NCBI RefSeq assembly: GCF_000018365.1
Contig: NC_011529.1
Span: 372,001 to 436,000 of the forward strand
From: Thermococcus onnurineus NA1
GTDB taxonomy: Archaea > Methanobacteriota_B > Thermococci > Thermococcales > Thermococcaceae
Direction: 5' to 3'
DNA length: 64,000 bases
Numbering within the stretch: the stretch's first letter is position 1; each line of letters starts with the position of its first letter. Below are positions 884-53,251 of this stretch, piece after piece. Position numbers and translations under genes: made by a program. The notes under the pieces are model-generated. The model did not search any database and was not told where the DNA came from. It saw only the letters and a program-made list of their open reading frames with translations.

Positions 884-943
884 GGGGATGATGACCATTT
901 CCCTCACTCTGAAGAGTGATGAGGAGCCGATGCTCTGACCCGG
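884..943 (+). ncRNA. C/D box guide sRNA (2'-O-methylation), number 1
   Basis: All four boxes are in the correct order: C box ATGATGA (888-894), D' box CTGA (909-912), C' box GTGATGA (916-922) and D box CTGA (935-938). They are flanked by a short terminal stem (GGG before C, CCC after D). The D' guide is 895-908 (14 nt) and the D guide 923-934 (12 nt), typical archaeal spacing. Nucleotides 898-907 (TTTCCCTCAC) are perfectly complementary to GUGAGGGAAA, a universally conserved domain I segment of 23S rRNA as I remember it. By the N+5 rule the modified base would be the A of GUGAG. The D guide pairs more weakly, with wobbles, to the UCGGCUC segment near the peptidyl-transferase centre. Target assignments are inference. 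Confidence 0.82.
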
Positions 944-51865: not shown

Positions 51866-52126
51866 TCAGGCCTTGGAGGCCGTAACACGCTTGGCGACCT
51901 TTCCAGCCGGGGTAACCGGCAGGTAGGCGCCGCCGGCAAAGGTGGCACCGCACTTCTGGCACTGCCATATGCCGGTACTTATCCTTCTGACCGCCTTCCT
52001 TCCGCAGACCGGGCAGATGTGCTTCTGCTTCATCTTGGCCTCAACGGCCGCGACCCTTCTTCTGATCTTGAGACCGTACCTCGGACCGAACCTTCCGGCT
52101 GAACCGACCTTAGTAGTCCTTCCCAT
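51866..52126 (-). CDS. rpl37ae: 50S ribosomal protein L37Ae
   Basis: The 86-aa zinc-binding ribosomal protein begins [18 protein letters not shown] and has [11 protein letters not shown] and [16 protein letters not shown] 52126 follows GGTGATGCTC. It heads the long minus-strand operon through rpoP, Brix, pcc1, pfdB, DUF3194, DHH and beyond. Confidence 0.96.
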
Positions 52127-52182
52127 GAGCATCACCCCTAATTATCAGCAATTTTCACGACTGAAGGGTTTTTCCGGGGACG

Positions 52183-52193: not shown

Positions 52194-52560
52194 TTTGCAT
52201 ATACCTGGACACCGAGCGGGCTTATGCCTAATAAACCTTTCGCGTGGAACTTTGCCAAACAACGTTTCATCAGGAAGCTTTTGGAAAAAGCTTCATTAAA
52301 AGTTCGTGATTCCTTTCAATATTGCGTCCGGTAAGACGTATTTCACAAAAAGAATGTAATTCAAGAGTTAAAAACTGTGTTGGGTTGTGCTCTTAAAATG
52401 GATTTGCTCTTTTTGAGGCACCCGCAGGTGCCGATGGAGTGAATCCATGCAAATTACGCGGTTTTAAAAGGTTTTGAATTCAGAACAGGAATTTCGATAG
52501 GAAATACACTTTTTTCATTGGACTCGGCAGTTCAAGAATCACGAATCTTGATCAAACTCA
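52194..52560. other. AT-rich non-coding stretch with several hairpins
   Basis: No plausible gene is seen on either strand. It holds a 9-bp hairpin (52274-52294), GGCACC-CGCA-GGTGCC (52417-52432), ATGGA-GTGAA-TCCAT (52434-52448) and CAAGA/TCTTG arms (52533-52550). TATA-like TTTTAAAA at about 52461-52468 on the plus strand could drive a transcript covering the GC-rich hairpin block that follows. Confidence 0.5.
52274..52294. repeat. Perfect 9-bp hairpin GAAGCTTTT/AAAAGCTTC
   Basis: The arms 52274-52282 and 52286-52294 are perfectly complementary with a 3-nt GGA loop. It lies in the non-coding gap upstream of the rpl37ae promoters. The role is unknown. Confidence 0.5.
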
Positions 52561-52691
52561 ACGGGACTGTCGTCCCGTGCGTTGGAGCTTTGCTCCAACG
52601 TCGCGCAGGCGAAGTTTGTATCGAAAGGGGGCCTTTGGGAGTGTCGGCCCCCTGGGGGTCCCGAGGTCATCGCAACCCAATACTCCTCGGG
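52561..52691 (+). ncRNA. Candidate structured RNA: five consecutive perfect hairpins
   Basis: Within 131 nt there are five perfect stems in a row: ACGGGAC/GTCCCGT (52561-52578, TGTC loop), CGTTGGAGC/GCTCCAACG (52580-52600, TTT loop), TCGC/GCGA (52601-52612), GGGGGCC/GGCCCCC (52627-52652) and CCCGAGG/CCTCGGG (52660-52691). The block is much more GC-rich than its AT-rich flanks, which is the usual signature of structured RNA in hyperthermophiles. It has no coding character. It does not match RNase P RNA, SRP RNA or C/D box RNA as I know them. Strand is inferred from a TATA-like element upstream and a T tract (CCAATTTT) after it. Confidence 0.5.
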
Positions 52692-52728
52692 CGTTCCAAT
52701 TTTAGCATAAAGCCTTATAACACTTACA

Positions 52729-52750: not shown

Positions 52751-53251
52751 ATGGGTGGAACGATCAGCAAGATAGTTCACTTTCGCGATGAGGAAGAGTT
52801 TCTCGACGACATGACGGAGATAATGGAGCGCTTTACCTATCTGGCGAGCCGCTACGGCCACAACCCGATAGAGGGCATTCTCCTCTGGGACTACATAGGA
52901 ATTCAGGACGAGGAAGGCATTAAGATATTCCGTGTTGGCGAGTTTCCTTACTTCGAGGGCACGCTGAAGCTCGACCTTGAGACTCTGCGCGTCATGGAGC
53001 GCTACTTCGACGAGATGGAGAGCAAGTGGGACGAGCTCCGCGTGGAGGACATCGCCTACTTCGTGGAGATGCTGAACGAGGCTCTTGGGAGGGAGATAGT
53101 CTTCTACGAGGCCTATGATCTTGGTCTCGACAGGGACACGGCTTACATAATCCTCAACCTCGTGAGCCTCCATTACCTCGAGAGCGTTCTTGACGGGAAG
53201 GACCGGGAGATATTCGAGGAAGCCGTTCAAATGCTCATGAAGTATATTTGA
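52751..53251 (+). CDS. Hypothetical protein, 166 aa
   Basis: I recognise no domain. It is a mostly helical acidic protein without signal peptide; the last third (DTAYIILNLVSLHYLESVL) is hydrophobic-helical. TATA, palindrome and GGTGA precede ATG 52751. It starts a plus-strand run of genes leading to queE. Confidence 0.75.
   Translation: MGGTISKIVHFRDEEEFLDDMTEIMERFTYLASRYGHNPIEGILLWDYIGIQDEEGIKIFRVGEFPYFEGTLKLDLETLRVMERYFDEMESKWDELRVEDIAYFVEMLNEALGREIVFYEAYDLGLDRDTAYIILNLVSLHYLESVLDGKDREIFEEAVQMLMKYI

Follow-up and report, generated by a model that had tools for sequence, protein, structure and literature searches.

What is encoded by a run of five perfect hairpins that follow each other almost without spacer in an archaeal intergenic region? 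The run lies at positions 52561–52691 of a 64 000-nucleotide stretch of the Thermococcus onnurineus NA1 genome (NC_011529.1, positions 372 001 to 436 000; hereafter, the window), and an earlier note, made from the letters of the DNA, had proposed it as a new structured RNA. All five stems were located at the places described, the fourth being 8 bp long and not 7 as had been given (Table 1). The block was also found to be GC-rich (0.59–0.63 as compared to 0.32–0.49 around it), and the non-coding gap of ~620 nt measured 615 nt between the L37Ae gene and the gene at 52751. The whole block folds better than its dinucleotide shuffles (z of −4.2 on the plus and −5.4 on the minus strand). When folded alone, 52545–52622 gave z values of −5.6 (plus) and −7.1 (minus), and 52623–52694 gave 0.0 (plus) and −2.5 (minus). 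The hairpins of this block exceed what is expected by chance.

We performed a DNA search of the block against 61 Thermococcus genomes and observed the following. Positions 52534–52619 (query 15–100) are present in multiple, dispersed copies, while positions 52622–52720 (query ~103–201) occur once per genome. The block is therefore not a single unit, its halves having had separate histories. We consider it very probable, for the whole explanation taken jointly, that the block is a junction where an ortholog of the published RNA sRk28 adjoins a ~345-bp repeat of tRNA gene flanks. The single-copy sRk28 gene on the minus strand (52625–52691) would be transcribed from its own promoter, with a start near 52692. 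The inverted-repeat element (52274–52620) lies directly 3′ of it, the palindromic tip of this element making up the other three hairpins. The family of the element is nearly confined to Thermococcus, where it mostly follows closely upon the 3′ end of a tRNA gene or of sRk28; it is probably a mobile element of the non-autonomous kind, with the enzyme that moves it encoded elsewhere. The invariant loop and linker would most likely let sRk28 function independently, as a trans-acting or structural RNA, and not as a switch of the downstream mRNA.

Table 1. Features of the hairpin block and its surroundings (window positions)
Feature	Position	Strand	Remarks
Stem 1 of block	52561–52567/52572–52578		7 bp
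Stem 2 of block	52580–52588/52592–52600		9 bp
Stem 3 of block	TCGC/GCGA inside 52601–52612		4 bp
Stem 4 of block	52626–52633/52646–52653		8 bp
Stem 5 of block	52660–52666/52685–52691		7 bp
sRk28 ortholog core	52625–52691	minus	R1 match G000:C1:424625-424691
sRk28 stem 1 with invariant loop	52685–52691/52660–52666	minus
sRk28 linker between stems		minus	ACCCCCA
sRk28 stem 2	52646–52653/52626–52633	minus
Predicted sRk28 transcription start, first G	52692	minus	extrapolated from the 5′ end mapped for P. abyssi sRk28 and from promoter spacing; good to ~2 nt
sRk28 TATA box TTATAA	52715–52720	minus	palindromic
166-aa protein	52751–53251	plus	no Pfam/NCBIfam match; divergent neighbour of sRk28
Ribosomal protein L37Ae	51866–52135	minus	Pfam PF01780, E 8.7e-34; next gene downstream, outside the RNA
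Whole repeat unit	52274–52620	none	~345 bp; interior AT-rich around a GC palindrome (GGCACC..GGTGCC) at its centre; no gene recognised
Repeat right end	52536–52620	minus	four-way-junction palindrome (three block hairpins and closing stem); inverted-repeat core GATCAAGATTCGTGATTC
Repeat left end	52274–52319	plus	hairpin GAAGCTTTT/AAAAGCTTC; inverted core TTCGTGATTC

The core of the single-copy half (GCCCGANGAGU...GGGUUGCGAUGA...CCCCCAGGGGG on the minus strand) is nearly invariant. The covariance model R1 found one copy in 78 of the 94 Thermococcales genomes, covering all six genera (three of the 78 matches being weak or partial), and no match in 21 genomes from other orders of the phylum. A search of the Thermococcales had been suggested for the block as a unit; the two halves occur separately. 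In genome G064, which we take to be that of P. abyssi GE5, the match lies on the minus strand at 527728–527796, followed by a gene for a PP-loop ATPase. The sRk28 of P. abyssi was mapped to 527697–527833, with its 5′ start at 527798 (Phok et al. 2011, PMC3124441), 2 nt away from our match. The gene next to it was described as the QueC-like PAB1992 (PMC3124441), with which the ATPase in G064 is consistent. The minus strand of 52625–52691 is the ortholog of this published RNA. It shares with sRk28 of P. abyssi, known also from T. kodakarensis, the core sequence, the two stems, the strand, the 5′ end to within 2 nt and the single copy across the Thermococcales. It differs from the P. abyssi locus in its neighbouring genes and in the repeat element that directly follows it. 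A conserved, structured and covarying RNA thus exists at this place as had been proposed, but it is a minus-strand RNA made up of the last two hairpins alone, and it had already been published.

Both helices of sRk28 consist of standard pairs in 99.5% of the cases (48 loci). At the same loci, 37 double-change cells were counted as compared to 15.1 in shuffles (0/500), and sliding of the pairing partner abolishes this covariation signal. Only two pairs have double-sided changes because most of the stem positions never vary. No Rfam family matched sRk28 or the rest of the block at gathering score, and the matches obtained up to E 10 over the window were unrelated and at chance level. For sRk28, absent from the Rfam families, there is now a model that covers the order, together with a promoter pattern and a genomic context, which weaken its reading as a riboswitch.

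Archaeal promoter signals were present on the minus strand at all the 48 sRk28 loci. The BRE is A-rich, with A/T at −33 in 46 and at −32 in 40 of the 48. The box from −28 to −23 has A/T in 41 to 48 loci depending on the position, and at −10, counted from the first G, all 48 have A/T. In 36 of these loci, from several genera, sRk28 has a member of the 52751 gene family as its divergent neighbour; in one further locus this family is placed downstream. As the TTATAA box is palindromic, its use by the divergent gene is possible, and the box may be common to both. We also considered a plus-strand leader of the 52751 gene and rejected it, as the plus-strand fold of 52623–52694 does not exceed its shuffles (z of 0.0) and the minus-strand promoter is kept in the loci devoid of this gene.

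The right end of the repeat folds as a four-way junction on either strand, and exact inverted arms of 10/10 nt (52303–52312/52536–52545) are present at the two ends of the unit. A copy from another locus (L032) aligns over 52276–52616 at 71%, and the left end is also found in other copies. The other units read likewise have interiors rich in AT, with a GC palindrome at the centre. The model R2, which matches the right end at G000:C1:424536-424619, has matches in 58 of the 94 Thermococcales genomes, those outside Thermococcus being weak. The repeat core was found at 17 sites in its own genome and at none for the reversed control. The ORF list of the unit, 347 bp long in the window, holds short chance frames only and no transposase gene. 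A low-scoring match to RAGATH-34 at 52275–52381 (27.2 bits, the cut-off being 60.7) was taken as chance.

The repeat has the traits of a MITE: it is short and dispersed, has inverted terminal repeats, carries no internal transposase or other recognisable gene, and its orthologous sites are found filled and unfilled. This element contributes the first three hairpins through one of its ends, and the option of mobile-element remains raised in the earlier note holds to this extent. Unlike MITEs, it has no identified parent transposase, strongly prefers the 3′ flank of tRNA genes and has ends that form a four-way-junction palindrome; no target duplication was seen by eye in the few units read. No longer element with the same ends was seen at the core sites of its own genome. 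At L175 (3312–3990), two tandem units with hairpins at the ends stand between protein genes, away from any tRNA. We considered this pair as a longer, enzyme-bearing element and rejected it, as only short chance frames are present inside. At L034 (1080–1600), a short unit without the two extra arms lies behind tRNA-Val, followed ~330 bp on by a long unit, indicating that units can stand head to tail. We found no description of the repeat in the open-access literature searched, and it is seemingly undescribed so far.

The position of the repeat was determined for 36 distinct copies in the fetched loci, 26 of which are intact at the RNA-gene-proximal end (match from position 4 or below). For 24 of these intact ends, the start is no more than 13 nt away from where a tRNA (20 copies) or sRk28 (4 copies) has its 3′ end. 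The 20 are located 1–13 nt behind the tRNA, 19 of these tRNAs being called by ARAGORN and one, an intron-bearing tRNA-Met, by eye. About a dozen tRNA types are flanked by the repeat, and the four sRk28 copies lie directly behind this gene. The tandem pair of L175 is an exception away from RNA genes, as are L181, L182, L092 and L032. We give no probability for this preference, since copies that stand behind orthologous tRNAs do not count as independent. For archaea, the repeat is a testable case of an element that strongly prefers the 3′ flank of tRNA genes.

The presence of the repeat is patchy even at one site. We fetched 30 loci of an orthologous tRNA-Gly site, of which 29 were scored (L168 ends at the tRNA and is unreadable). 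Six of the 29 contain the repeat, two in the long and four in the short form, and 23 were without it by the pattern used; L147, which is counted among the latter, keeps an apparent truncated remnant. Occupied and unoccupied versions of this site show gain or loss, and not the mechanism of it. Other palindrome-tipped sequences (ACAAACTTTTCTGGTGAAAAGTTTGATCAAATAATTC) were observed just 3′ of sRk28 in L055, L062, L063, L071 and L125, as if several related repeat types share one site behind this gene.

A bolder reading, less likely than not, would make the repeat an archaeal mobile element of a new kind, which would target the immediate 3′ flank of stable-RNA genes (sRk28 and tRNAs of many types), have four-way-junction DNA ends and depend for its movement on some enzyme of the host or of a plasmid. 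Insertion at the 3′ ends of tRNA genes is known in archaea from casposons and their miniature derivatives, and the repeat is like them in this respect; it differs in that no duplicated tRNA end was noticed at its far side (a few units, by eye). Archaeal integrases commonly use tRNA genes, so that the repeats could instead be old integration sites of plasmids or viruses and not an element that targets itself. We consider this unlikely, as the end of the repeat lies beyond the tRNA and is found beside sRk28 as well, and as neither the 72 556 plasmid nor the 50 697 phage records yielded a copy at the sensitivity used.

Still less likely is that the end of the repeat works as an RNA, serving for instance as a tRNA trailer, as a terminator or as the omega-type guide RNA remaining from a TnpB element. 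The sense orientation behind tRNAs, the strong fold and the double-sided changes (38 in the helices of 44 copies) are in favour of it, and transposase-related RNAs are known in the Thermococcales (sRk48, sRk52 and HgcC). However, the helix-weakening changes to G-U and to A-C are equally frequent on the tRNA-sense strand (27 each), so that neither strand is favoured. Selection on an RNA from one strand would favour G-U, and the balance makes the palindromes seem to be kept at the DNA level. T residues show no enrichment behind the end (0.365 as compared to 0.383), which argues against a terminator. sRk48/sRk52 and HgcC are repetitive and structured like the repeat, but they relate to OrfB/TnpB genes, a link not observed for the repeat in the loci read; Rfam gave no HgcC match in the window, and sRk48/52 are set apart by their descriptions. 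We also rejected an IS605/TnpB element with omega RNA, since inverted ends, which such elements lack, are present and neither tnpB nor any other transposase gene was noticed in the loci read (part of them profile-scanned). Of the guide-type RNA suggested earlier there is thus no sign, neither a TnpB gene in these loci nor a constraint on an RNA of one strand. These data suggest that the hairpins of the repeat are DNA palindromes and not RNA.

A preQ1 riboswitch was suggested for sRk28 of P. abyssi, whose riboswitch-like features were noted by its authors (PMC3124441). In agreement with this, sRk28 lies 34–36 nt upstream of the PP-loop (QueC-like) ATPase in the four Pyrococcus loci read. Among the 48 loci, however, a place in the leader of a queuosine-related gene is confined to Pyrococcus and is not conserved. 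The first downstream frame on the same strand is of at least six unrelated kinds, at distances up to ~1.2 kb: PP-loop ATPase, topoisomerase, ribosomal-protein or rRNA-biogenesis cluster, CBS/HTH protein, helicase and HEPN-like protein, as assigned from the sequences by eye. In the window, it is the L37Ae gene, ~490 nt away from sRk28 and behind the repeat. In T. kodakarensis, sRk28 is a growth-phase-regulated orphan transcript, and its downstream gene has its own start (PMC4247193). The preQ1 riboswitch class of Rfam did not match sRk28, either at gathering score or up to E 10. A downstream gene that is not conserved counts against a cis-acting riboswitch throughout the order, not against one confined to Pyrococcus. 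Control of the gene just downstream by a preQ1-type switch is accordingly improbable, and an independent trans-acting or structural RNA is the likelier reading of sRk28.

For such an RNA, the invariant loop and linker would point to a conserved partner. We considered pairing between the loops of sRk28 and rejected it: 89% of the cells are paired in 14 close relatives, but over the 48 loci the pairing is no better than with shuffled partners (135/500), although some loops were shortened by the script, so that this is not a strict exclusion. A genome target of the 11-mer of the invariant loop, TCATCGCAACC, was rejected as well, as its three sites, including itself, are near chance.

The five hairpins do fold together without spacer and better than shuffles, but the original reading of the whole 131-nt block as a single structured RNA is hardly tenable, as many tRNA genes are flanked by the repeat with no sRk28 present, and as sRk28 occurs in Pyrococcus and further genera with no repeat next to it. 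Two features that are independent but adjacent can thus look like one striking series of hairpins. None of the archaeal H/ACA or C/D guide families in Rfam, where coverage of H/ACA is incomplete, matches sRk28. An ordinary C/D box guide RNA was observed far from the block, at 884–941 (+), as the sole such match in the window (snoPyro_CD, RF00095; 50.8 bits).
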